From positions 496,001 through 560,000 of the forward strand of contig NZ_JAATOP010000001.1 in the NCBI RefSeq assembly GCF_011806565.1: a DNA stretch of 64,000 nucleotides, in the 5' to 3' direction. The translations under genes and the position numbers were made by a program. Position 1 is the first letter of the stretch; each line of letters begins with the position of its first letter. Below the pieces are notes generated by a model, which ran no database searches, was not told the DNA's origin, and worked only from the letters and a program-made list of their open reading frames with translations. This stretch comes from Marivivens donghaensis (GTDB taxonomy: Bacteria; Pseudomonadota; Alphaproteobacteria; Rhodobacterales; Rhodobacteraceae). This document shows positions 2,525-14,708 of the stretch, in pieces.

Positions 2525-3130
2525 ATGACACGCAATATCGTAGCCATCATTCGCGGCGTCACGCCGGACGAAGCCCTTTCGGTCACGGGGGCTTTGATCG
2601 ACGCAGGCATCACGAAAATCGAGGTGCCGCTGAATTCCCCCGACCCTCTGAATTCCATTGAAGCAATGGCCAAGGCGTTCGGCGAAACGGCCCTCATCGG
2701 CGCAGGTACAGTCCTGTCGAAGGGCGATGTGGAGGATGTAGCCAACGCGGGCGGTAAGCTGATCGTCTCGCCCGACTGCAACCCCGAAGTCATCGGCGCG
2801 GCCAAATACAAGGGCCTGCTGTCCTATCCGGGCGTCATGACCCCGACCGAATGCTTCGCGGCCCTTCGCGCAGGGGCGGACGGGCTCAAGTTCTTCCCCG
2901 GATCGCTCATCGGTCCCGCTGGCCTCAAAGCGATGAACGCGGTTCTGCCCAAAGGCACTGATCTGCTGGCGGTCGGCGGCGCGAGCGCCGACAACTTCGG
3001 TGAGTGGGCCGCCGCCGGTGCGACGGGCTTCGGCATTGGCACGGCACTCTACAAACCGGGTGACAACGCCGCCGTGGTGGCCGAAAAGGCAACCCATATT
3101 GTGACTGCTTACGACCAGGTATTTTCTTGA
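2525..3130 (+). CDS. dgoA: 2-dehydro-3-deoxy-6-phosphogalactonate aldolase
   Basis: This 201-aa KDPG-aldolase-type TIM barrel splits 2-keto-3-deoxy-6-phosphogalactonate into pyruvate and glyceraldehyde 3-phosphate. The catalytic Glu33 (KIEVPLNSP) and the Schiff-base Lys122 ([11 protein letters not shown]) are both visible, together with the phosphate-binding GAGTVL and GGASADNF loops. It starts one base after the dgoK stop, and its own TGA overlaps the next ATG (TGATG at 3128-3132), so the three genes are translationally coupled. A KDPG rather than KDPGal preference cannot be excluded from sequence, but dgoK next door favours the galactonate route. Confidence 0.88.
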
Positions 3131-3978
3131 TGACTGCTTCTGTTTTCGACGACCGCGCTTGCGAACTGGGCGAAGGCCCCCTTTGGCACCCCGAGCGCAA
3201 GCAACTGTTCTGGTTCGACATTATGGCGAACACGCTGCACACGCGCTCCGACGCTGGCCCGCAAAGCTGGGATTTTGGAGAGCGCGTATCTGCCGCCGGC
3301 TGGGTGGATCAGACCACGCTGCTGGTCGCGTCGGAAACCAAGCTCCAGAAGTTCGATATCGAGACGGGCACCACTGGCCACGTCATCGACCTTGAGGCCG
3401 ACAACTCTGTCACCCGTTCGAACGACGGCCGCGCTGATCCGTTCGGTGGTTTCTGGATCGGCACGATGGGCAAGAACGCCGAGAAAGTGGCCGGATCGAT
3501 CTATCGCTACTACCGCGGCGAACTGCGGAAACTGTTCGGCGGTATCACCATTCCGAACTCCATCTGCTTTGCCCCTGATGGCCGCACGGGGTATTTCACC
3601 GACACGCCGACACGCATCGTTAAAAAGGTCTCTCTCGCGTCCGACGGTTGGCCCGATGCCGAGCCCGAGGTGTTCGTCGACTTGAACGACAGCGAAATGA
3701 ACCCCGACGGCGCGGTCACGGACTCCGAAGGTGCGGTCTGGTGCGCGCATTGGGGCGCCCACCGCGTCACACGCTATCTGCCCGACGGCACCAAGGATAT
3801 CAGCGTCGAAGTCGGAGGCGCCCACGCATCGTGCCCCGCATTCGGCGGCGACGGCTACAAAACGCTGTTCGTCACGACCGCCTGCGAAGGGATCGACACC
3901 CCATCCGAAGCCGAAGGCAAGGTCTATAGCGCGCCAGTCGACGTCGCCGGTCTACCGGAGCCGCGCGTCATCCTCTAG
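3130..3978 (+). CDS. SMP-30/gluconolactonase-family lactonase
   Basis: This 282-aa six-bladed propeller would hydrolyse an aldonolactone to the free acid, feeding the genes upstream. The metal-binding glutamate lies in LGEGPLWHP near the N-terminus; RSNDGRADPFGGFWIGTMG and FAPDGRTGYFTDT are characteristic SMP-30 blades, and MNPDGAVTDSEGAVWCAHW follows. The ATG at 3130 overlaps the dgoA stop; a TTG at 3127 would add only one residue. In this operon the likely substrate is a galactono- or arabino-lactone, but that is inference. Nothing recognisable fills the 81 bases before the next gene. Confidence 0.85.
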   Translation: MTASVFDDRACELGEGPLWHPERKQLFWFDIMANTLHTRSDAGPQSWDFGERVSAAGWVDQTTLLVASETKLQKFDIETGTTGHVIDLEADNSVTRSNDGRADPFGGFWIGTMGKNAEKVAGSIYRYYRGELRKLFGGITIPNSICFAPDGRTGYFTDTPTRIVKKVSLASDGWPDAEPEVFVDLNDSEMNPDGAVTDSEGAVWCAHWGAHRVTRYLPDGTKDISVEVGGAHASCPAFGGDGYKTLFVTTACEGIDTPSEAEGKVYSAPVDVAGLPEPRVIL

Positions 3979-4059
3979 CGCTATTCGCAGGCTTGGATGT
4001 CCAGTGCGTTGAAAATCGGATAGGACGTCGGGACCCATTCCCTAGCTGGTGCTGACCCG

Positions 4060-4704
4060 ATGACAGACGCTACCGCCACGCTCGCCTTCGTCGACTTTTT
4101 GGCAACGGCGATCTTTGCCATGACCGGTGCGCTTGTAGCGTCTCGTAAGCAGCTGGATATGCTCGCTTTTGTCTGGTTCGCAGCAGCGACCGGCATCGGC
4201 GGAGGAACCCTGCGTGACCTGCTGCTCGATGTGCCCGTGTTCTGGATCATCAATCCGGTCTACCTATCGATCTGTATCGTCGTAGCGGTGGTAATGCATT
4301 TCGCCGCCTCGCTTGTGGCCTCGCGGCAAACCTGGATCTTGTGGGCGGACGCCTTCGGCATGGCCTTCGCGGCGGTCGTCGGCACGGCTAAAGCGCTTGA
4401 ATTGGGTGCGTCAGCCCTCGTTGCGGTCGCGATGGGACTGTTCAGCGCCACCGCGGGCGGGATCATCCGCGATACGCTTGGTCAGGAGCCGAGCATCATC
4501 TTGCGCCCCGAAATCTACATGTCAGCCACGGTTTTGGGTGCAGTAACAGTCGTCGGAGGCCATTGGTTTGGCCAGCCGATGACTTTATCGATGCTTGCGG
4601 GCTTTTGCGTCGCGCTAACCGTCCGCTTGGCAGCAATCCAGTTCGATTTGAAGCTTCCGGTCTACAAGCCGCGCAAGGGCAGGCCGTGGGGACGCAAAAG
4701 CTGA
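4060..4704 (+). CDS. TRIC-family (UPF0126) cation channel protein
   Basis: The 214-aa product is an inner-membrane protein with seven hydrophobic segments, arranged as two tandem repeats with signatures GIGGGTLRD (residues 45-53) and GLFSATAGGIIRD (126-138). This duplicated glycine-rich pattern is diagnostic of the prokaryotic TRIC/UPF0126 (YadS-like) family, whose characterised members are trimeric, potassium-permeable channels. The C-terminal tail is basic (KPRKGRPWGRKS) and probably cytoplasmic. It is the last core gene before the left edge of the integrated island. The physiological role in this organism cannot be read from the sequence. Confidence 0.85.
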   Translation: MTDATATLAFVDFLATAIFAMTGALVASRKQLDMLAFVWFAAATGIGGGTLRDLLLDVPVFWIINPVYLSICIVVAVVMHFAASLVASRQTWILWADAFGMAFAAVVGTAKALELGASALVAVAMGLFSATAGGIIRDTLGQEPSIILRPEIYMSATVLGAVTVVGGHWFGQPMTLSMLAGFCVALTVRLAAIQFDLKLPVYKPRKGRPWGRKS

Positions 4705-4762
4705 GGCAATTCCCGACACCGCCAAGGTGCGAAGTCATTCAATAAATTGGGGAAAATAGAGG

Positions 4763-4779
4763 TGGAGGCGAGTACCGGA
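4763..4779 (+). repeat. Left attachment core (attL)
   Basis: TGGAGGCGAGTACCGGA is identical to the last 17 bases of tRNA-Cys at 13832-13848 (complement orientation), the expected duplication left by integrase-mediated insertion into a tRNA 3' end. The sequence after it (cccgctacc) does not continue the tRNA, so this is the displaced copy. Confidence 0.85.
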
Positions 4780-4840
4780 CCCGCTACCATTTTTCTAAGC
4801 CACTGGAAGGCTTCAACAATCGAGTGCGAGGTTGAGTTGT

Positions 4841-4862
4841 GTGTCGCACTTCGTGTCACACT
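4841..4862 (+). repeat. Left arm-type direct repeats (candidate integrase or excisionase binding sites)
   Basis: Two 10-mers, GTGTCGCACT (4841-4850) and GTGTCACACT (4853-4862), lie with a 12-bp period 61 bp inside attL. The same arrangement (GTGTCCCACT twice, 12-bp period) lies just inside the right end. Paired direct repeats at both ends of a tRNA-integrated element are typical of the arm sites bound by tyrosine integrases. The assignment is inferred. Confidence 0.6.
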
Positions 4863-4940
4863 TATGCTGCTAGAGTTGCGTTTCTGTCAACCGCCGAGTG
4901 TTCTCTCAGGTGGCCTTCTATTCTCCTATAGGTGGCCCGG

Positions 4941-5087
4941 ATGCCGACACCCGGCAGTTATCTTGCCTATGCGAAGGCCGACTTACGAGGCGGGGCGTAT
5001 CCCTACCATCGCGGGTGGGGTATGGGGGAAGTCCGCGCGGCTCAGTATATGGATAGGGCCGCGAAAAAATGTTTTGAGATTTTATGA
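4941..5087 (+). CDS. Small island protein of 48 aa, translationally coupled to the polymerase-like gene
   Basis: An ATG at 4941 opens a 48-codon frame beginning MPTPGSYLAYAKADLRGG and ending AAKKCFEIL. It is preceded by a good ribosome binding site (AGGTGG, 4930-4935, five bases from the ATG). Its TGA (5085-5087) overlaps the ATG of the next gene as ATGA, the arrangement seen at other operon junctions here. The protein is rich in Gly, Ala, Tyr and Arg, with one Cys and no signal peptide or membrane segment. No family is recognised. Ribosome site plus coupling make it more likely a real gene than a chance frame. The rest of the 379-bp gap before the large gene holds attL, the arm repeats and two AGGTGGCC copies. 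Confidence 0.55.
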   Translation: MPTPGSYLAYAKADLRGGAYPYHRGWGMGEVRAAQYMDRAAKKCFEIL

Positions 5088-6415
5088 TGACCGATGAACC
5101 CAAGTCCGTACTTGCTTTAAAGGCAGCGGCTTTAGCGGCTGAGTTGCCCAACCAACTCGCAGATCATTCATGGGCCTTTGAACCATATCTTGCGCTATCA
5201 AATCCCGATGCACAAAACCTTATCGACTTGCTTATGGATGACGTGTGCGCAGCGTGGACCGCATCATTTGCGCGAAAACCAAGCATCGACAGGCAACAGG
5301 CGTTTATCGACTGTGGCGGTGTCATTCTCGTAAACCTGATGCGGGCGAAGTGCAACAAGCGGCCGACTACAATCGGAATGCGACGTGGCAAGGGCGCTCT
5401 AGATCGTGAAAAGCGATACCGCCCAGACCACATGAAAGCCAAGCTATTCATCACTGTGCAAGACCGGCTTATCAACGCGGGCTATGTCGAAAAGGCGAAA
5501 AGTGGTTTCAATCTTCCCGGCTACAGTCAGACAAGCCGGTTTGCCTTGACGGAAAAGGGCGCGTTGGAACTCGAAACACATGAATGGGACGTCAACGACT
5601 TCAAAGTGCACCGGGGCAGAGAAACCATCCGCTTGAAGGACGCCGATGATCGACTTTGCGGATACGATGACACGCCTGAGATAATGGCTATCCGGGCGCA
5701 TATTGACGAGATCAACGCAAAGCTGGAAGCAACCGACATAGACACTGCGCGACCGCTCAGCATCCATGACAAAGGGCCGGACTATGAAGGTCGCAAGGCG
5801 AGCTTGCACCGGGTATTCAACCGGGGCAACTTCGACCATGGGGGGCGGTTCTATGGCGGGTGGTGGCAGGTCATCAAGAAACACGCGCGGCCCAAAATCA
5901 CCATAGACGGGCGGCACACCATCGAAGCAGACTTCCGGGGCTTCAACCCGGCGGTGCTGTTGGCAGAGGCGGGCCAGCCCATACCGGATGATCCTTATTC
6001 TCCAATAGTGGGGTCGAATGCGGACAAGGAGTTGCGGGACCACGGCAAGTCCACACTTGCCGCGTTGCTCAACTCCAAAACAGGCACCACCGAAGAACCT
6101 CGCGACTTCGACAGCGCCCGTTGGGGTATAACGGCAGAGGACTTCCGGCAGAAGGTGCTGGACGCCTTCCCAATGGTTCGCGCCATGCTGGGCACCGACA
6201 AGGGCCTAACCCTGCAACGGTTGGAAAGCGACATTGCCGAGGCGATCATTCTGCACTTTGTCAGGCAGGGCCATACGATCCTGCCCATCCATGATGCCTT
6301 CATCGTGCAGGCCCATCTGGAAGGGGAACTTGTACGAGTGATGCAGGACACCTTTAAAGCGAGGCTGGGGCAGGTTCCTCCTGTCAAAGTCACCCGGTCC
6401 TACGCCCTACGCTGA
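5084..6415 (+). CDS. Compact family-A DNA-polymerase-like protein of the island
   Basis: This 443-aa protein has a helical, winged-helix-like N-terminal half (about 60-165) and a conserved C-terminal half opening with RVFNRGNFDHGGRFYGGWWQ (243-262). Three blocks follow in the order of family-A polymerases: EADFRGFNPAVL with Asp283 (motif A-like), R318-x3-K322 followed by LAALLN (O-helix-like), and LQRLESDIAEAI ... LPIHDAFIV with His403-Asp404 (motif C-like, compare VHDE). No exonuclease domain or full fingers domain is evident. From memory, GGRFYGGWWQ proteins recur as uncharacterised proteins of mobile elements. Plausible roles are replication of the excised island or nucleic-acid synthesis in defence; both are inference. 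The start at 5084 is set by the ATGA overlap with the small gene. Confidence 0.55.
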   Translation: MMTDEPKSVLALKAAALAAELPNQLADHSWAFEPYLALSNPDAQNLIDLLMDDVCAAWTASFARKPSIDRQQAFIDCGGVILVNLMRAKCNKRPTTIGMRRGKGALDREKRYRPDHMKAKLFITVQDRLINAGYVEKAKSGFNLPGYSQTSRFALTEKGALELETHEWDVNDFKVHRGRETIRLKDADDRLCGYDDTPEIMAIRAHIDEINAKLEATDIDTARPLSIHDKGPDYEGRKASLHRVFNRGNFDHGGRFYGGWWQVIKKHARPKITIDGRHTIEADFRGFNPAVLLAEAGQPIPDDPYSPIVGSNADKELRDHGKSTLAALLNSKTGTTEEPRDFDSARWGITAEDFRQKVLDAFPMVRAMLGTDKGLTLQRLESDIAEAIILHFVRQGHTILPIHDAFIVQAHLEGELVRVMQDTFKARLGQVPPVKVTRSYALR

Positions 6416-6437
6416 CCTATCCCTACAAATCCAATGT

Positions 6438-6462
6438 TCCCTTTACCGGGGCAAATAAGGGA
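6438..6462. promoter_or_regulatory. Candidate operator upstream of mod, shared with the nuclease gene
   Basis: A quasi-palindrome with outer arms TCCC and GGGA surrounds TTAC-C-GGGGCAAATA. The same core, TTAC-T-GGGGCAAATA flanked by CCCC and GGGA, occurs at 11131-11156 upstream of the nuclease-like gene. The site lies 65 bp before the mod start. It could bind a controller protein and co-regulate the two units; no obvious regulator is encoded in the island. Confidence 0.45.
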
Positions 6463-6527
6463 CCGCTGGATTTTCCCTGTTCCGTCAGGCACAAAGGGCG
6501 AAAAGACGAACACGGGGGCGACCATCC

Positions 6528-8456
6528 ATGCAAAACCTTCTCGATGACCTGACGGACCTTCTTCAAGCCGAACAGGCGTTTATCTCGGATGGGGCAATCC
6601 TCAAGAATGCGGTAATCGAGGCGGCGCTGAACATGGATGCGCGGCTTTTAGAACTCCTGATGCAGTTAGACACGATCAAGGCGCACTTCTTCACCGAAGT
6701 TGCGGGGGTGCTGGTGTTCGACAAAGTAAAGTTTCAGGACTTTGTGTCCAATAAAGCCTTCCTGCCCGACAGTTACACCGCTTTCAAGAACCGGATCGGC
6801 CTGACCGATGGGCGAGGTGACTACCTGAGCCAGTCGCGCGACGTAGTGCTGGCGTGGCCCTACAAGGATTGTGTGCTGGAAGGCGGCATGACGAAAGAGG
6901 ACCGAGGCCGCAACGAGGTGTTCTGGAACACGACGCTGGCCCCGGACGACATCACGCGACTGTTTGAACCCAAGGTGCTGACCGGCTGGGAACGCTGGGA
7001 TGCAGAGGCCGTGGCGGAGGGCAAGGCCAAGCCCGTGGCGGAGGTGTCAGAGGACGACAACCTGCTCATCAAGGGCAACAACCTGCTGGCACTGCATTCG
7101 CTGAAAGCACGCTATGCGGACAAGGTGAAGCTGATCTATATTGACCCGCCCTATAACACGGGCAATGACGGGTTTCGGTATAACGACCGCTTCAACCATT
7201 CCGCGTGGCTGACTTTCATGAGGAACCGTTTGGAGGTAGCGAAAGCGTTGTTACAAAAAGACGGGCTTTTGTTCGTGCATTGCGATGGGAACGAGTTTGC
7301 ATACCTTAAGGTGCTCTTAGATGAAGTGATGAGTGACGGGATTTTTATCGAGTGCATTACCGTTGTGAACAATCCCCGTGGTCGCGATTATGGCGGCATT
7401 GCCAATATGCACGAATACATCCTTTGCTACGCCAAGCGACCTGATTATGAACTTCATCGCCTTGACGATCCTCAGAAGCAGTTTCCATATTCCGACACAA
7501 CCGGAGGCTTTGAGCTTCGTGAACTTAGGAACCGAAATACTGCCTTCAACGAGGGCAATCGTCCCAATCTTGTATATCCTTTCTATGCCGATCCAGAGGA
7601 CACTGATGAAAATGGCCTTCACACGATAAGCCTTGAACCTAAGGACGGTTGGCGGGAGGTCATGCCAGCCAAATCGCAAGGTATTCAGACTGTTTGGCGC
7701 TGGGGTAAACCTCGATCACAACAGAACCTCAACACTGAAATCAAGGCCAAGCAAATGAAAGATGGCCGATATCAAATCGTTGAAAAGTATCGCGACACTA
7801 AGCAGATGGCGCGTTCGGTTTGGTGGGATAAGGAAGTAAACTCTGAGCGCGGTACATTGCATGTGAAGTCACTCGTAGGGAAACAGGCCTTCACTTATCC
7901 AAAACCAGAAGAAACGCTCAGCCGCATCATCGAGATGACAACCGACGAAGGCGATCTTGTACTCGACTTCTTCGCAGGCTCCGGCACCACAGCTTCAGTC
8001 GCAAGTAAAATGGGGCGGCGTTGGCTGGCAGTGGAGCAGATGGACTATATCGAGGATTTAACCAAAACTCGCCTCAAGAAAGTCATTGAGGGTGAACAGG
8101 GTGGCATATCCAAATCCGTCGAGTGGCAAGGCGGTGGATCGTTTGTCTATGCCGAACTCGCAGCATCCAACTCGGTCTTTGCGGACCGGATCGAAGCGGC
8201 CCCTGACATGGTCACGCTGCAAACCATTCATGCCGACATCCAAGCCACGGGCTATCTGCGCTATGACGTGGACCTGAGCGCCTTTGACACTGATGACTTC
8301 GCTGCACTTCCACTGGACGATGCCAAGCGCGTCTTGATGGACTGCCTTGATGCCAACCACCTCTACGTCAATCTCGGCTCCCTTGGAGATGCGGATTTCG
8401 ACATCTCGGACGAAGACGCCCGCGCGACCCGCTCTTTCTATGGGCTGGACGCATGA
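6528..8456 (+). CDS. mod: Type III restriction-modification methyltransferase subunit
   Basis: This 642-aa N6-adenine methyltransferase both recognises the site and methylates it. DPPY (206-209, in KLIYIDPPYNTG) precedes the SAM-binding DFFAGSG (480-486), the beta-class order typical of type III Mod proteins. The N-terminal region (1-170) matches the usual Mod extension, and the target-recognition region falls between the two motifs (about 225-470). That middle stretch is visibly more AT-rich than the gene ends, suggesting an exchanged recognition domain. Its stop overlaps the res start (ATGA), so Mod and Res are co-translated and should form one complex. The ribosome binding site is weak. 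Confidence 0.9.
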   Translation: MQNLLDDLTDLLQAEQAFISDGAILKNAVIEAALNMDARLLELLMQLDTIKAHFFTEVAGVLVFDKVKFQDFVSNKAFLPDSYTAFKNRIGLTDGRGDYLSQSRDVVLAWPYKDCVLEGGMTKEDRGRNEVFWNTTLAPDDITRLFEPKVLTGWERWDAEAVAEGKAKPVAEVSEDDNLLIKGNNLLALHSLKARYADKVKLIYIDPPYNTGNDGFRYNDRFNHSAWLTFMRNRLEVAKALLQKDGLLFVHCDGNEFAYLKVLLDEVMSDGIFIECITVVNNPRGRDYGGIANMHEYILCYAKRPDYELHRLDDPQKQFPYSDTTGGFELRELRNRNTAFNEGNRPNLVYPFYADPEDTDENGLHTISLEPKDGWREVMPAKSQGIQTVWRWGKPRSQQNLNTEIKAKQMKDGRYQIVEKYRDTKQMARSVWWDKEVNSERGTLHVKSLVGKQAFTYPKPEETLSRIIEMTTDEGDLVLDFFAGSGTTASVASKMGRRWLAVEQMDYIEDLTKTRLKKVIEGEQGGISKSVEWQGGGSFVYAELAASNSVFADRIEAAPDMVTLQTIHADIQATGYLRYDVDLSAFDTDDFAALPLDDAKRVLMDCLDANHLYVNLGSLGDADFDISDEDARATRSFYGLDA

Positions 8457-11077
8457 GCCAGACCCTAAACGAACAGATTGATGCGGTTGCCAAGTTTGGG
8501 ATGCTTAAGGCCGACATTCCCGACGACATCACCGGCAACCTCGCGCCGAAGATCGAGTTACGCCCGTATCAGCGCACGGCACTAGAACGCTGGCTGTTCT
8601 ACATCGACAAATACGAGGCGCGGCCCAAGGCCCCGCACTTGCTGTTCCACATGGCCACAGGCAGCGGCAAGACTGTGCTGATGGCGGCGCTGATCCTTGA
8701 TCTTTACCGGCGCGGCTATCGGAACTTTCTGTTCTTCGTGAACTCCGCCCAGATCATCGAGAAGACCAAGGAAAACTTCCTCAACCCTGCATCGGCCAAG
8801 CACCTGTTTGCGCCAACGGTACGCATTGACGACAAGCCCGTGGAAATCCGCGCGGTGGACACCTTCGACGCGGTGTCAGGCGATGCGATCAACATCCACT
8901 TCACTACCATTCAGGGACTGCACACAAGGATGCAGGCCCCCAAGGAAAACGCCGTCACCATCGAAGACTTCCGCGACTACAAGGTGGTGATGATCTCGGA
9001 CGAAGCGCACCACTTGAACGCCGAGACCAAGAAGACGCTAACGGCAGGGGAAAAGGCGGACAAGGCCAGTTGGGAAGGCACGGTATCCGAGATTTTCCGC
9101 CAGCACCCCGAGAACATGTTGTTGGAGTTTACCGCGACTGTGGACCTGAGCCATGAGGCGATCCGCGCGAAGTATGCCGACAAGATACTGTACGACTATT
9201 CCCTGCGACAGTTTCGGGAGGGCGGCTATTCCAAGGACATCGAGTTGCGGCAGGCCGATTTGCCGCCCGAGGCCCGGATGATGCAGGCGATGGTTCTGAG
9301 CCAGTATCGCCGCAAGGTGGCCGAGGCGCACGGGCTGCATTGCAAGCCGGTGATCCTGATGAAGTCCAAGACGATCAAGGAAAGCGCCGACAACGAAGCG
9401 ACCTTCACTGCGATGGCTGCCGGGCTGACGGGCGAGGCGCTGGACGCGCTCAGGGTGGCCTCTGAGGGCGATGAGACGCTTTCGCGGGCCTTTGCCTTCA
9501 TCATGGATGAAAGGGCCATGAGCGGCGCGGATTTCGCCCGCGAGCTACAGGGCGATTTTGCCCCCGAGAAGGTGGTGAACGTCAACAACCCCAAGGATTT
9601 GGAAAACAGACAGATAGAACTCAACGCCTTGGAGGACCGCGACAACGAGATGCGGGTGATCTTTGCCGTCGATAAGCTGAACGAAGGCTGGGACGTGCTG
9701 AACCTGTTCGACATTGTGCGGCTTTACGATACTCGCGACGGCAAGGCCAACAAGGTCGGCAAAACCACTATGGCCGAAGCTCAGTTGATTGGACGCGGGG
9801 CGAGGTACTTTCCGTTCATGGCCCCGGACCAGCCTGACGCGGCTCGGGAAAAACGCAAGTACGACAGCGCCGTGGACACGCCTCTGCGCATCTTGGAGGA
9901 ACTGCACTACCACTGTTCGCACAATCCTAAGTACATCCAAGATATCCGCAACGCCCTGCGTGAAACCGGGATGCTGGATGATACCGCACGGACGGTGCGA
10001 CTGCGCCTCAAGGACAGCTTCAAGCAAACTGACCTGTATGAACGTGAGTTTGTTTGGGTCAATGATCGGGTGCGCAATCCCCGCGATGGTGTTGCTGGCC
10101 TTGACGCCTACAAGATCGAAAGCACTGTCACCTATCCTAACCTGATGACAGGCCGGGTGATAGAAGCCTCTGCCTTTGGCGGCGGGCAGTTGACTTTGAA
10201 GCCGTCCAGCAAAGAACCTGTGTCCCGCGACTTCAAACTGGCCGACTTTGGCAGGGCCATTCTTGGCTTTGCGATGGACGCCAATGACTTCTTCCACTTC
10301 GCCAACCTGCGGACCTATTTCCCGCAACTCGCCAGTGCATCGCAGTTCGTCACCTCTGACACCTATCTGGGCGGCGTGACAGTGAGTCTGCGCGGATTGC
10401 TAGATGACTTGGACAACCTGACCGCACGGCAAAAGCTGGACATCGCGCAATACGTCCTGCACGAGATCGAAAGCGGTGTGAAACGCGAAAGTGTCGAATA
10501 TGTCGGCACCAAGGACTTCAAGCCCTATCCCATCAAGGACCGTTTCACCGACAAGGTGCTGAAACTGCGGGTTGAAGGCGAGACTGGGCTAAGCTGGACC
10601 GAAAGCAACGTGCCAGGGCTGGACCAGATCGACCTGTCGGGCAAGGGCTGGCACGCCTATGACGACAGCTATGGCACGGATCAGGAAAAGCACTTCATCA
10701 AATACATGCACGATCAGGAAGCCCGGTTGCGCGGTATCTATGACGACTTCTACCTGCTGCGGAACGAGAAGGCGGTGAAGCTATACGACTTCGACACCGG
10801 ACGCGCCTTTGAACCCGACTTTGTTCTATTTCTGAGGAAGAAGGGCGAGGATGCAAGCACGATCTTTCAGCTATTCATCGAACCCAAAGGCGACCAGTTG
10901 CGCCCGCAAGACGACTGGAAGCAAGACTTCCTTGCTCAAGTGAAAGCCAAGGCCCGACTTGAAACGGTATTCCAAGGGCGGGACTATACCGTGCTGGGGC
11001 TGCCCTTCTTCAATGAGACTGGGCAGACCAATACTGACTTCAAAGCCGCATTCGAGACTGAGGTGCTGGACGCATAG
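8453..11077 (+). CDS. res: Type III restriction enzyme Res subunit (helicase-nuclease)
   Basis: The 874-aa product is the ATP-dependent translocase and nuclease partner of Mod. Near the N-terminus are Walker A (MATGSGKT, about 67-74) and the DEAH box (ISDEAHH, about 181-187). Helicase domain 2 includes DKLNEGWDVLNLFDIVRLYD and the Q-x-x-GRG segment AEAQLIGRGAR. The C-terminal nuclease motif is EPDFVLFL ... LFIEPKG (about 786-812), a PD-(D/E)XK signature with the Glu and Lys intact. No frameshift or stop interrupts it, so the restriction activity looks functional. It starts inside the mod stop codon. Confidence 0.9.
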   Translation: MSQTLNEQIDAVAKFGMLKADIPDDITGNLAPKIELRPYQRTALERWLFYIDKYEARPKAPHLLFHMATGSGKTVLMAALILDLYRRGYRNFLFFVNSAQIIEKTKENFLNPASAKHLFAPTVRIDDKPVEIRAVDTFDAVSGDAINIHFTTIQGLHTRMQAPKENAVTIEDFRDYKVVMISDEAHHLNAETKKTLTAGEKADKASWEGTVSEIFRQHPENMLLEFTATVDLSHEAIRAKYADKILYDYSLRQFREGGYSKDIELRQADLPPEARMMQAMVLSQYRRKVAEAHGLHCKPVILMKSKTIKESADNEATFTAMAAGLTGEALDALRVASEGDETLSRAFAFIMDERAMSGADFARELQGDFAPEKVVNVNNPKDLENRQIELNALEDRDNEMRVIFAVDKLNEGWDVLNLFDIVRLYDTRDGKANKVGKTTMAEAQLIGRGARYFPFMAPDQPDAAREKRKYDSAVDTPLRILEELHYHCSHNPKYIQDIRNALRETGMLDDTARTVRLRLKDSFKQTDLYEREFVWVNDRVRNPRDGVAGLDAYKIESTVTYPNLMTGRVIEASAFGGGQLTLKPSSKEPVSRDFKLADFGRAILGFAMDANDFFHFANLRTYFPQLASASQFVTSDTYLGGVTVSLRGLLDDLDNLTARQKLDIAQYVLHEIESGVKRESVEYVGTKDFKPYPIKDRFTDKVLKLRVEGETGLSWTESNVPGLDQIDLSGKGWHAYDDSYGTDQEKHFIKYMHDQEARLRGIYDDFYLLRNEKAVKLYDFDTGRAFEPDFVLFLRKKGEDASTIFQLFIEPKGDQLRPQDDWKQDFLAQVKAKARLETVFQGRDYTVLGLPFFNETGQTNTDFKAAFETEVLDA

Positions 11078-11130
11078 CACGGTGCCGCTTGTCTAAGTCT
11101 GCGGGATTGGCGGGCCTATAAATGGTATCT

Positions 11131-11156
11131 CCCCATTACTGGGGCAAATAGTGGGA
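11131..11156. promoter_or_regulatory. Second copy of the island operator, upstream of the nuclease-like gene
   Basis: CCCC-A-TTAC-T-GGGGCAAATA-GT-GGGA repeats the element found 65 bp before mod; ten consecutive bases (GGGGCAAATA) and TTAC are identical. It ends 31 bp before the start at 11188. Confidence 0.45.
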
Positions 11157-11167
11157 AGAAATCCCAC
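11151..11167. repeat. Perfect hairpin in the leader of the nuclease-like gene
   Basis: GTGGGA (11151-11156) and TCCCAC (11162-11167) are exact complements around AGAAA. The left arm overlaps the end of the operator-like element, so binding of a regulator and folding of the RNA could compete. No T-run follows, so it is not a standard terminator. Confidence 0.4.
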
Positions 11168-11187
11168 ATTCAGAAAAAAGTAATGAT

Positions 11188-12060
11188 ATGAGTACCTTCA
11201 CGCCACCAAAGCGCATTTCGCTCAAGAACCATCCTGTCTATTCCGAGAACTGGGTGCAGGACATTATTGCAGCCGATCCGGCGATCCTTGGGCTTGGTGA
11301 CTTGGTTCTGCGTGATCGTGAACGCATTCAGACACGGGCGGGCAGGTTGGACCTGCTTTTGCAAGACCGGGATAGCTACAAGCGTTATGAGGTTGAATTA
11401 CAACTCGGGCCAACTGACGAAGCACATATCATCCGCACTATTGAATATTGGGACATCGAGCGGAAACGCTATCCGCAATACGAGCACTGCGCGGTTCTGG
11501 TCGCTGAGGACATCACCAGTCGCTTTTTGAACGTGGTGTCATTGTTCAATGGATCACTGCCGATCATTGCAGTACAGATGCAGGCTTTTGAAGTCGGGGA
11601 TCACATCACGCTTGTCTTCACCAAAGTGTTGGATGAAATGCAGCGTGGCTTGGTAGACGAAGACGAAGACGCAATCAGCGCCCCGACTGACCGGTCTTAC
11701 TGGGAAGAAAAGGCCGCTAAGAAGACCATAGCCCTTATGGACCGCATGTTTGAAGTGGTACGTGAAGGCGATCCGAACTGCGAACTGAAATACAACAAGT
11801 TTTACATAGGCTTGTTGAAGGATGGGCGGGCGAACAACTACGTCGCCTTCCGTCCAAAGAAGTCTTTCGTGGTGTTTGAGCCGAAGTTGCCACGCTCAGA
11901 CGAAGTTGACGCAATGCTAGACACCGCAGGCGTTGAAACGCTTGAGTATAGCACGCGGTGGGCCAACTACCGTATCCGCGTCATTGACAAGGACTTCAAA
12001 GAGCATGAAGACCTTTTCCGGCATTTGATAAACGAAGCGCGCAATCAGCGTGAGGGCTGA
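11188..12060 (+). CDS. NucS-like / PD-(D/E)XK nuclease candidate of the island
   Basis: This 290-aa protein has an N-terminal domain of nuclease type. After WVQDIIAADPAILGLGDL comes RAGRLDLLLQ (about 51-60), then YEVELQLG (about 68-75) and HIIRTIEYW. The spaced Asp and Glu-x-Gln fit a PD-(D/E)XK core in which Gln replaces the usual Lys, as in some restriction-like folds; the layout recalls NucS/DUF91 domains. The C-terminal part (NKFYIGLLKDGRANNYVAF ... SFVVFEPKLP ... LEYSTRWANYRIRV) resembles DUF5655-type modules. It follows mod-res with its own promoter region and a shared operator-like site, so it may be an accessory defence effector. Function is inferred. No good ribosome binding site is visible. 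Confidence 0.55.
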   Translation: MSTFTPPKRISLKNHPVYSENWVQDIIAADPAILGLGDLVLRDRERIQTRAGRLDLLLQDRDSYKRYEVELQLGPTDEAHIIRTIEYWDIERKRYPQYEHCAVLVAEDITSRFLNVVSLFNGSLPIIAVQMQAFEVGDHITLVFTKVLDEMQRGLVDEDEDAISAPTDRSYWEEKAAKKTIALMDRMFEVVREGDPNCELKYNKFYIGLLKDGRANNYVAFRPKKSFVVFEPKLPRSDEVDAMLDTAGVETLEYSTRWANYRIRVIDKDFKEHEDLFRHLINEARNQREG

Positions 12061-12171
12061 GCTGATACGCCAAGCGAAGACCGAGCGAATGGCCAAAGTG
12101 CGGGTTGAGACTTGCTGCTTAACCAATGCAATGGAAGGGGCCATCCGAGACAGCCCCAACCACCCAATCGA

Positions 12172-13764
12172 CTATTTGGCTCGTTCGATGGCGAAGCGGT
12201 CGATGGCGTCTTTCAATTGTGCTAGCGTGTAGCCTTCCCTCAGATAGACTTCCTGCGTGACACCTGACCGGGCGTGGCCAACAATGCACTGGATGATCGG
12301 CTCTGGCACGTTCGCTTGCCCTAGTCGCGTCACCACGGTGTGCCGCAGGCTATGGAAGACAAGGCCCGGTTGCTTGATCCCCAGCTTGGGCAAGAAACTC
12401 TCGTTGCACCAGCGGCCCAAGTTGCGACCGTAGCCGCCATTGGCGCTGTAGCTGTAGTCTGGGAACAGGCGTGTGCCGTTCCTGCGACTGTCCACGAAGT
12501 CGAGAAAGCCAAGGCGGATCAACTCCGAATGCAGCGGCACCTTGCGCCGTCCTGCCTTAGACTTAACGCTTTTGGTGTCGTCGCCTTCGTCGGTGATGTT
12601 TAGGAACCATGTATCGCCGTCCTGCTTCACATCGGCAATGTCGAGTTGGCAAATCTCGTTCAGACGCGCCCCGGTGAACATGCCTAAGAGCATTCCCCAC
12701 TTATGGCTGTCCTTGCGGACCAGCCCGGACGGGTTTCTCGTCAACTCGGTGTAGATCAGGCGCGCTTGGTCTGGTGTGAAGGGCTTACGCTCGCTCTCGC
12801 TGGCCTTGTCCTTCTTCACCTTCATACCTTCAAAGAGCGTATGCGGTGAATGCCCATGCCGTTCGGCCCAGTCGAAGAACATCTTGAACATCTGGATATG
12901 GCTGTTGATCGTCTTGGCTGCGATCTTCTTGTGACCGGGTTCCTTGATGACTTGCATCAACGGTACGGCCTTCAACTTGGGCTTCGTGTTCCGGCTTGCC
13001 GGTAGCGCCTGTAACACCTTCTTTACTTCGCTGGCATCCTGCTTGGTGATCATTGCAAGCAACCGATCAGGGCCGAAGTATTCTACAAGGATGTTCAGGT
13101 AGGCACGGTTCTGGCCAGTGGTTTTTGCGGCCCACTGCCGCGAATGCTCAGCAATGAAATCATCTACCGCCACGCCCAGAGGCGATGAGGCTGGCAGAGC
13201 GGGTGCAGGAGCGGCAGGAGCGCTGGCTGGGACATCGTCATAGGAGTAATGCTCAAGACGCTCAGCGGCTTCGAGAACGCGCCTGAGCATGTCCCGGCGG
13301 CCTTGGCGTAGCTGGTGGGTGATCCGTGGCTGGCTGGCGTTCCATTGTTCGTCTGACACATCCATGACGCGCTTGAAACGCTCAACGGGCAACCACTGTG
13401 GAAAATCCGTCTCCATCTCTAGGAAACTTTCATGGTCCAGTATTTCTTCGCGAATGTCCGTTAGGGCGTTCTTCGACAAACCGCGACGGTCCAGCCAATC
13501 AAGGTACTGGTCCAGTTGCGCCTTGAAGTAGGCTTGCACCTTGTCGCGTATCTCGCTTTGTCTCAGTCCTGCCAATGCGTTGTTCTCTCGCAGTATTCTT
13601 CCGCAGGATGCAAGATGGCGGGCCAAATCACCAGCCCGATCCGGGCAACGTGTACGCAAGGATATGCGTATTGACGCTCGCTTTCCCTCCCTAGTGTGAG
13701 GGATAGACCAGCGAAAGTAGTAAATCCCGTGTCTTGAGGGGCTTAGATAGGATGACAGCATCAT
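12172..13764 (-). CDS. Tyrosine-type site-specific integrase
   Basis: The 530-aa recombinase would insert and excise the island at tRNA-Cys. The N-terminus (SRHGIYYFRWSIP) matches the DUF6538 domain of alphaproteobacterial integrases. A SAM-like core-binding domain spans about 205-310, and the catalytic domain has Arg367 (GARLNEI), HSLRH near 472-476, VGHARS, and the Tyr nucleophile near residue 509 (EVYLREGY). All expected catalytic residues are present. It sits 67 bp from the attachment core and reads away from the tRNA end, the usual arrangement. The 111 bp separating it from the nuclease gene hold no further gene. Confidence 0.92.
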   Translation of the reverse strand: MMLSSYLSPSRHGIYYFRWSIPHTREGKRASIRISLRTRCPDRAGDLARHLASCGRILRENNALAGLRQSEIRDKVQAYFKAQLDQYLDWLDRRGLSKNALTDIREEILDHESFLEMETDFPQWLPVERFKRVMDVSDEQWNASQPRITHQLRQGRRDMLRRVLEAAERLEHYSYDDVPASAPAAPAPALPASSPLGVAVDDFIAEHSRQWAAKTTGQNRAYLNILVEYFGPDRLLAMITKQDASEVKKVLQALPASRNTKPKLKAVPLMQVIKEPGHKKIAAKTINSHIQMFKMFFDWAERHGHSPHTLFEGMKVKKDKASESERKPFTPDQARLIYTELTRNPSGLVRKDSHKWGMLLGMFTGARLNEICQLDIADVKQDGDTWFLNITDEGDDTKSVKSKAGRRKVPLHSELIRLGFLDFVDSRRNGTRLFPDYSYSANGGYGRNLGRWCNESFLPKLGIKQPGLVFHSLRHTVVTRLGQANVPEPIIQCIVGHARSGVTQEVYLREGYTLAQLKDAIDRFAIERAK

Positions 13765-13820
13765 AGGGCGTGTGTCCCACTTTGTGTCCCACTCGACCGT
13801 TCAGCCGCTAACCCTATGAT
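13760..13820. promoter_or_regulatory. Integrase promoter region with flanking 9-bp inverted repeat
   Basis: ATCATAGGG (13760-13768, covering the integrase start codon) and CCCTATGAT (13812-13820) are perfect inverted copies 43 bp apart, enclosing the two arm-type repeats. This could allow the integrase to repress its own gene. It is a candidate on sequence grounds only. Confidence 0.4.
13772..13793 (+). repeat. Right arm-type direct repeats
   Basis: GTGTCCCACT occurs at 13772-13781 and again at 13784-13793, a 12-bp period, 39 bp inside the right core. It matches the pair near attL (consensus GTGTCVCACT), which is why both are read as integrase or excisionase arm sites. Confidence 0.6.
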
Positions 13821-13831
13821 TTAGAATGAAA

Positions 13832-13848
13832 TGGAGGCGAGTACCGGA
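13832..13848 (+). repeat. Right attachment core (attR) within tRNA-Cys
   Basis: This is the 17-bp copy identical to 4763-4779; it is the 3' end of the functional tRNA gene. Confidence 0.85.
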
Positions 13849-13905
13849 ATCGAACCGGTGTACACGGATTTGCAATCCGCTGCGTCACCACTCCGCCAAC
13901 TCGCC
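13832..13905 (-). tRNA. tRNA-Cys (anticodon GCA)
   Basis: The 74-nt gene reads GGCGAGT at the 5' end, pairs with ACTCGCC at the 3' end, and carries an encoded CCA (TGG at 13832-13834 on the plus strand). The anticodon stem-loop GGATTGCAAATCC gives GCA, and the T-arm GGTTCGATTCC is canonical. The island's right attachment core coincides with its last 17 bases, so integration leaves the tRNA intact. A possible promoter upstream is TTGCAC (13953-13958) and TATAGA (13932-13937), with a short 15-bp spacer. Confidence 0.95.
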
Positions 13906-14054
13906 GCCGTGGTGTGGTATGGTTCGCGTGATCTATACCGGAACTTCAGAACGTGCAAGCGGGTCAGATAGGATATTCTTTGACTTTCGGACATTGCGGG
14001 TTCGGGTTAGATATGGTTAGAACCTAATTGGAACTGAACGAAAGAGTTTAGACC

Positions 14055-14708
14055 GTGGCTGAATACACCACCCGCCGTACAATGATGGTCGATACGCAGA
14101 TCCGCCCGTCGGATGTGACCAAGTTTCCGATCATTGAAGCTTTCCTCGCCGTGCCGCGCGAAGCTTATGTGCCGTCGGCACAACGCGAAGCCGCCTACCT
14201 CGGCGAGAACGTCGCAATCGGCGAGGGTCGAGTGATGCTCGAACCGCGCACCTTTGCTAAGCTGCTGGATGCGCTCAATATTCAGCCTAACGAAGTCGTT
14301 CTGGATCTGGGTTGTGGCCTCGGTTACTCGACCGCTGTCATGGCTCGAATGTCTGAATTTGTCGTAGCCGTCGAAAGCGACGAAGCAATGGCTGCTGATG
14401 CGCAGGCGCTTCTGTCCGAGCACGGCGTGGACAACGCCGCAGTGATGACGAACCCGCTGGCCGAAGGCTGTGCCAAGTCCGGTCCGTACGATGTCATCAT
14501 TCTCGAAGGCGCTGTCGAGGTGGTTTCTGATTCCCTTCTGGCCCAGCTCAAGGAAGGCGGCCGCATTGCGTGCCTCTTTGCCGAAGGCGAGCTTGGTGTG
14601 GCCCGTGTTGGCTACAAGCTGGATGGACGGATCAATTGGCGGTTTGCGTTCAACGCTTCCGCTCCGGTTCTCGCCGGTTTCGAGAAAAACAAAGAATTCG
14701 CCCTCTGA
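14055..14708 (+). CDS. Protein-L-isoaspartate O-methyltransferase family protein
   Basis: This 217-aa class I SAM methyltransferase has the Pcm-type N-terminus (MMVDTQIRPSDV, then VPREAYVP), motif I VLDLGCGLGYST (about 82-93), the acidic AVESD segment and a PYDVIILEGAVE motif. It is a shorter, divergent Pcm relative found ahead of TolC genes in Rhodobacteraceae (recalled synteny); whether it repairs isoaspartate is uncertain. The start is a GTG at 14055. It is followed after 47 bp by the TolC gene on the same strand. Confidence 0.8.
   Translation: MAEYTTRRTMMVDTQIRPSDVTKFPIIEAFLAVPREAYVPSAQREAAYLGENVAIGEGRVMLEPRTFAKLLDALNIQPNEVVLDLGCGLGYSTAVMARMSEFVVAVESDEAMAADAQALLSEHGVDNAAVMTNPLAEGCAKSGPYDVIILEGAVEVVSDSLLAQLKEGGRIACLFAEGELGVARVGYKLDGRINWRFAFNASAPVLAGFEKNKEFAL

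Follow-up and report, generated by a model that had tools for sequence, protein, structure and literature searches.

The stretch analysed here, called the window, comprises 64,000 nucleotides of Marivivens donghaensis (assembly GCF_011806565.1, contig NZ_JAATOP010000001.1, positions 496,001-560,000) and contains a 9.1-kb integrative element that carries a gene for a small divPolA2/TV-Pol-like polymerase. On the forward strand, the open reading frame (ORF) of this polymerase runs exactly from 5084 to 6415 and encodes 443 residues, as the original prediction, made from the sequence alone, had proposed; its assignment relies on a PHROG match, the predicted fold, profile alignment and conservation. 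The element is bounded by exact 17-bp repeats, the left one (TGGAGGCGAGTACCGGA) at 4763-4779 and the right one at 13832-13848, both on the forward strand, and the repeat matches the 3' end of the integration target, tRNA-Cys(GCA) (13832-13905, reverse strand), inside which the right copy lies. Besides the polymerase, the element contains a type III restriction-modification methyltransferase (mod, 6528-8456) and a type III restriction endonuclease/helicase (res, 8453-11077), both on the forward strand, a 290-residue protein (11188-12060, forward strand) and a tyrosine recombinase, the integrase (12172-13764, reverse strand); mod, res and the integrase were identified by profile scans. In a congeneric sister genome, the left flank up to 4779 (89.3% identical) adjoins the right flank from 13831 (95.8% identical) with an 18-bp overlap. 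Because these flanks are contiguous there, the element is absent from the sister genome.

By its sequence, the window polymerase belongs to the PHROG 4756/divPolA2 family. It matches phrog_4756, annotated in PHROG as of unknown function, with an E value of 4.8e-36, and the same PHROG is matched by all 40 rows of the alignment of its relatives (A2). The protein matched nothing in Pfam or NCBIfam at E 1 and nothing in PADLOC at E 0.1; it thus neither reaches the gathering threshold of Pfam DNA_pol_A, as a canonical PolA does, nor matches PF00940 (RNA_pol), as a T7-like RNA polymerase does, and DNA_pol_A was also absent from the Pfam matches of 40 and of 20 relatives at E 0.1. The divPolA2 proteins of barbaviruses and other phages are described as retaining the catalytic palm, lacking the PolA-type thumb and exonuclease and carrying an N-terminal domain without known kin, with a suggested role in repair or RNA synthesis (Yutin and colleagues, 2024; PMC11348598). 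The TV-Pol proteins are presented as mobile-element polymerases whose genes lie close to restriction operons, lambda-type integrases and gamma-delta resolvases; the hosts listed include Rhodobacterales (Iyer, Abhiman and Aravind, 2008; PMC2579912). The original prediction's statement that this architecture had no described function was therefore too strong, as roles have been proposed in both publications, and we dropped the label "undescribed polymerase" because PHROG 4756 and the divPolA2 and TV-Pol publications already cover its relatives. What is new is the setting, a bounded bacterial element, the polymerase family itself being already known. Our literature searches found no publication under the identifier phrog_4756, no functional assay of divPolA2 in print, and nothing when an A-family polymerase, a tyrosine recombinase and defence systems were combined.

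The palm fold and the assignment of motifs A, B and C, both put forward in the original prediction, are backed by the predicted structure, the profile alignment and conservation. A palm fold is present in the model, as the original prediction required of a predicted structure, and the fold matches in the PDB span approximately residues 176-442; from the model and the profiles, we delimit an N-terminal domain (1-177) and a palm part (about 178-442). Among the best matches in a viral structure library are a Barba phage "DNA polymerase" (E 2.5e-21) and Aeromonas phage proteins (E ~3e-21), and a search of PDB sequences with the window protein gave nothing significant. As in divPolA2, the palm-type catalytic Asp residues of motifs A and C are present and the exonuclease domain is absent. 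The residues that characterize TV-Pol (a hairpin Arg, two palm Asp, a fingers Asp and RxxxK, with no nuclease domain; PMC2579912) also find their counterparts in R255 within the hairpin 242-257, D283 and D404, D303 and R318-K322, the hairpin being preceded in the model by one long helix (198-216), in the region where TV-Pol is described as having a thumb made of two antiparallel helices. In the front half, the model places a helix followed by a beta-hairpin (helix 119-131, strands 135-143 and 149-155); this part matches phrog_11046 weakly (E 0.0084), and HTH_27, TrmB and MarR each match weakly in one of 40 relatives (E 0.05-0.08). A winged-helix-like front half is thus plausible on the model. 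The N-terminal profile scored only E 0.47-0.48 against the PolA and RNA polymerase profiles. Taken as modelled, the protein would be a minimal family-A-type polymerase with a palm and short fingers, without exonuclease, and with an unrelated N-terminal domain replacing the usual thumb.

The motifs quoted in the original prediction are correct in letters and numbering (E281-A-D283-F-R-G-F, R318-xxx-K322 and L-P-I-H403-D404, with LQRLESDIAEAI preceding motif C) and far from chance; the GGRFYGGWWQ block likewise proved to be the counterpart of the PolA GRLSS...LQNIPVR block in the profile alignment. In an alignment of 28 rows, which remained from 33 hits once five near-duplicate or fragmentary ones had been removed, every row has D283 and E281, and 27 have R318, K322, H403 and D404, with one gap each. 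The conservation of Asp283 and Asp404, on which the original prediction hinged, also holds in a wider set of 95 non-redundant relatives, where D283 is found in 94 (one N) and D404 in 93 (two gaps). The other residues follow closely: R255 in 92 (three gaps), R269 in 92, R318 in 90, K322 in 91, H403 in 88 (two gaps) and E281 in 88. Between the window gene and five close homologues, the ratio of nonsynonymous to synonymous substitution rates (dN/dS) is 0.16-0.24, showing that the polymerase gene is under purifying selection. Three rows from 1.4-Mb genomes (L183, L184 and L185, family f9) are divergent and form a long branch; they keep both catalytic Asp, have Cys instead of K322 and, in two of them, also Tyr instead of R318. 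The true start codon of the window polymerase is uncertain. A close relative (L004) opens its reading frame a few codons earlier (MCRDFTM), and the corresponding window positions 5069-5083 contain an in-frame stop; in the one upstream-region alignment made, of five relatives, the stretch immediately 5' of the start codon is conserved.

The divPolA2 family is widely spread. Counting the host's own genome in each set, the host's bacterial family has relatives in 37 of 295 genomes (E 1e-5), its class in 30 of 385 (E 1e-10) and its phylum in 16 of 299 (E 1e-10), 15 of the latter lying within the host's class and one outside. Searches with tblastn at E 0.01 recovered 169 phage records, including 115 from Rheinheimera (Barba phages), 29 from Vibrio and 14 from Aeromonas. 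Relatives are also present in three plasmids and, from an alignment-based scan, at 51 IMG/VR loci; a scan of viral contigs with a single protein query found no relative. In a tree of 94 rows, the bacterial and IMG/VR sequences are intermixed, requiring a minimum of 10 changes, four of which are forced by well-supported branches.

Among 44 loci scanned, 22 have a tRNA and 12, including the window, have a tRNA-derived repeat of at least 14 bp flanking the polymerase. These 12 bounded elements measure 5.9-12 kb, and in two of them (L094 and L108) the polymerase is interrupted by stops. Of the 42 bacterial loci, 26 have the integrase cluster and eight a resolvase cluster (L102, L109, L111, L114, L115, L117, L121 and L122; the L115 member, which was scanned, is PF00239). 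When selected larger ORFs of the bounded elements were scanned, recognised defence genes appeared in six of the 12: type III systems in the window and in L002 (from Limimaricola cinnabarinus; by similarity to the window), a type II methyltransferase with a weak HNH match in L086, a type I system in L092, a type IIG system in L117 and a dCTP deaminase in L094. Within the clade nearest to the window, six loci have type III mod-like ORFs (cluster c10), in five of them immediately 3' of the polymerase. Overall, polymerase and integrase distances are correlated (Mantel r 0.70, n=22, with none of 5000 permutations as high; 0.75 with 20). Nevertheless, the window integrase is 84% identical to those of L089 and L090, where the polymerases share 30 and 27%, whereas in L002 the polymerase is 78% and the integrase 55% identical. 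The two genes are thus also exchanged.

Several known systems resemble this one in part. With the published divPolA2, the window polymerase shares the PHROG family, the palm, the missing exonuclease and, as far as the model suggests, an unrelated N-terminal domain; in contrast to the members described there, which are in phages, it is bacterial and located in a tRNA-Cys element together with an integrase and type III genes (PMC11348598). With TV-Pol, it shares similar neighbourhoods of integrases, resolvases and restriction genes, and resolvases or integrases are indeed found in our bacterial loci; however, no D5 helicase partner was found for the polymerase studied here, and the TV-Pol N-terminal domain is predicted to be all-helical, whereas that of the window is mixed alpha/beta in the model (PMC2579912). 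The family profile matched gp030 of phage Ma-LMM01 weakly (E 0.012), and in the 50 kb searched (out of 162 kb) no other ORF scored better; gp030 adjoins transposases and is probably the published TV-Pol. CcPol, a TV-Pol that acts with its partner MP as a primase-polymerase using deoxynucleoside triphosphates (dNTPs), is reported to prime DNA in vitro (PMC7581432). CcPol-MP and PolA-SSB resemble the window element in that an integrative element, frequently with restriction genes, encodes a family-A catalytic domain, but CcPol is closely related to bacterial Pol I and has an OB-fold partner and a helicase beside it, neither of which was recognised in the window element (PMC7581432, PMC10061031). 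Pfam saw no OB-fold single-stranded DNA-binding protein (SSB) or helicase domain of the PolA-SSB partner type in the element, where the 290-residue protein has no Pfam match. Finally, pipolins share direct repeats at tRNA ends, a tyrosine recombinase, a polymerase of their own and frequent restriction components, but theirs is the family-B piPolB (PMC7385651), whereas the predicted fold here is of family A, not that of a family-B primer-independent polymerase.

We tentatively favour, at somewhat below an even chance, a DNA polymerase that depends on a template, is probably a primase-polymerase and turns single strands of the element or of incoming DNA into double strands. The N-terminal domain would help the polymerase to start on single-stranded DNA; the polymerase would then copy single strands, whether those of the element or incoming ones, and the resulting double strand would be the form needed by the integrase and the restriction enzymes. 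By analogy, the catalytic steps would follow from family-A chemistry. Beside the predicted fold, the conserved catalytic residues, the selection, the element structure and its absence from the sister genome, which were obtained here, catalytic activity, dNTP use, priming and the biological role are what we infer.

Several observations weigh against this interpretation. In Thermus, a primase-polymerase that is encoded by a mobile element and has another fold is reported to be dispensable for element replication and to limit transformation (PMC7693054), so that this precedent and CcPol-MP would, as analogies, pull both ways. The Pfam scan of the element genes recognised neither a D5-type helicase nor an SSB partner, and none of 30 D5-helicase loci (approximately 1.5 kb either side) contained the polymerase family; one 7.5-kb contig has both, its D5 being fused to an AEP prim-pol. 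A repeat-bounded element at the same tRNA-Cys (L305), with a 68%-identical integrase and, by eye, apparent insertion-sequence genes, lacks the polymerase altogether, and hence the polymerase is not required for integration there. An obligatory core gene is thereby rejected; the polymerase is an accessory gene, frequent but not obligatory, of small tyrosine-integrase elements at tRNA 3' ends, many of which also have restriction systems. A profile search of PDB sequences was not significant, with Taq Pol I as the best match (E 0.13). In addition, of the 93 rows with a residue at motif C, 85 read HDS (74) or HDA (11; HDA also in the window), as in phage RNA polymerases of the T7 type, where PolA has HDE. 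The hidden Markov model (HMM) of the family, compared with 14 RNA polymerases, scored best with a Pelagibacter phage enzyme (E 3.4e-5; the next at 0.035), and its best score among 30 PolA was slightly weaker (E 1.5e-4, 29 of 30 below E 1). RNA_pol was also the sole polymerase model among the weak Pfam matches (2 of 40 rows, best E 0.011; 1 of 20 rows, E 0.0018); the other weak matches, to LXG in one of 20 rows (E 2.5e-4) and to eleven families that each appeared in a single row, were taken as chance.

The last three points are also those in favour of a DNA-dependent RNA polymerase of the single-subunit kind, or of an RNA primase, which would transcribe genes of the element or of phages and whose N-terminal domain would recognise the promoter or origin. 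To them can be added the mitochondrial RNA polymerase, which ties with DNA polymerases in the fold comparison (T7 RNA polymerase was not among the 50 fold matches listed, which is not evidence against a likeness), and the fact that the same option is raised for divPolA2 by Yutin and colleagues (PMC11348598). We nevertheless consider it rather unlikely. At the steric gate of motif A, where a bulky residue favours dNTPs, the relatives have H (67 of 95), N (8) or Q (8), and the window has N288, at the position where T7 RNA polymerase has Gly; by this rule, dNTPs are favoured. The Tyr of motif B is replaced by Asn in 73 of 95 relatives (N330 in the window). The window polymerase thus lacks the canonical PolA set of a gate Glu, a motif B Tyr and HDE, and on sequence grounds its signature for dNTPs or ribonucleoside triphosphates appears mixed. 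With hhalign, the family aligned with PolA over 178-181 columns (E 1e-6 for a first profile of three rows; E 1.4e-4 for a second of 30 rows, 29 PolA and T7 DNA polymerase) and with RNA polymerases over 51 columns, motif C alone (E 0.002-0.004). As negative controls, integrases gave 0.32 and 0.62 against the family, 0.41 and 0.63 against PolA, 0.15 against RNA polymerase and 0.075 against the N-terminal part. The true pair of PolA and RNA polymerase scored E 0.12 and 0.066 over 15-18 columns, and because a true pair scores E 0.07-0.12, the method misses true kin and its difference weighs little here.

Three other explanations have to be considered. A repair, gap-filling or lesion-bypass DNA polymerase that aids the host or phage, unconnected with element movement, seems improbable to us: carrier phages are described as having, in cases, a separate replicative PolB, up to three paralogues and variable neighbourhoods (PMC11348598), and the polymerase is missing in at least one related element (L305), but no repair gene is conspicuous among the annotated bacterial neighbours, which are a selection, and a UvsW-like helicase is nearby in one phage clade (five loci). 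Still more doubtful is a defence gene whose enzyme synthesises nucleic acid, with or without a template, as a response to invading DNA or to counter it, alone or with the restriction system. The recognised defence genes of six bounded elements and the mod-like ORFs following the polymerase would suit such a role, as would the limited transformation reported for Thermus (PMC7693054); the window polymerase is, however, not in PADLOC, and phage genomes carry the family too. Islands targeted to tRNA genes generally carry defence genes, which makes the association unspecific. A catalytically dead palm protein serving DNA binding or regulation is hardly credible. Eight of the 95 rows depart at D283, D404, R318 or K322 (two of them by a gap at D404), but the window protein has both Asp as well as R255, R269, R318, K322 and H403, all of which are nearly invariant among its relatives.

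A more novel reading, which we hold to be very unlikely, couples the polymerase to the restriction system: DNA that enters as a single strand by transformation or conjugation would be primed and filled in, and the double strand so made could be cut by type III, I, II or IIG enzymes; if true, a small integrative element would close the single-strand gap in restriction-based defence. In any case, the compact 443-residue bacterial copy, the precisely bounded 9.1-kb element and the element-free sister genome offer a simple test system in which to ask whether very small family-A palms synthesise DNA or RNA and whether their role lies in element movement or in defence. The motif pattern (His/Asn gate, motif B Asn, HDS) is intermediate between those of DNA and RNA polymerases, which is relevant to the evolution of sugar choice in this superfamily.

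Regarding the other features of the window element, the 290-residue protein matches the PADLOC candidate PDC-S18 weakly (E 1.7e-6); by eye, its GRLDLLL...YEVEL stretch may resemble the motif of PD-(D/E)xK nucleases. A 36-nucleotide imperfect repeat (78%) at 6422-6457 and 11115-11150 precedes mod and the gene of the 290-residue protein and is perhaps a regulatory site shared by both. An Rfam scan of 4500-14100 at E 1 gave the tRNA alone and no partner RNA. Among the related loci, an IMG/VR contig (L034) encodes two polymerases (3087-4394 and 7816-8832) of two subtypes known from tRNA-Cys elements and is perhaps a tandem composite element. At a tRNA-Asn, the L122 element contains, adjoining its polymerase relative, a 742-residue protein (5480-7705) with HATPase and Top6A/Spo11 Toprim matches and no PADLOC match. 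Beside a related integrase in L309 (approximately 6800-10700), repeated peptide fragments among the ORFs look, from the sequence, like a CRISPR array.
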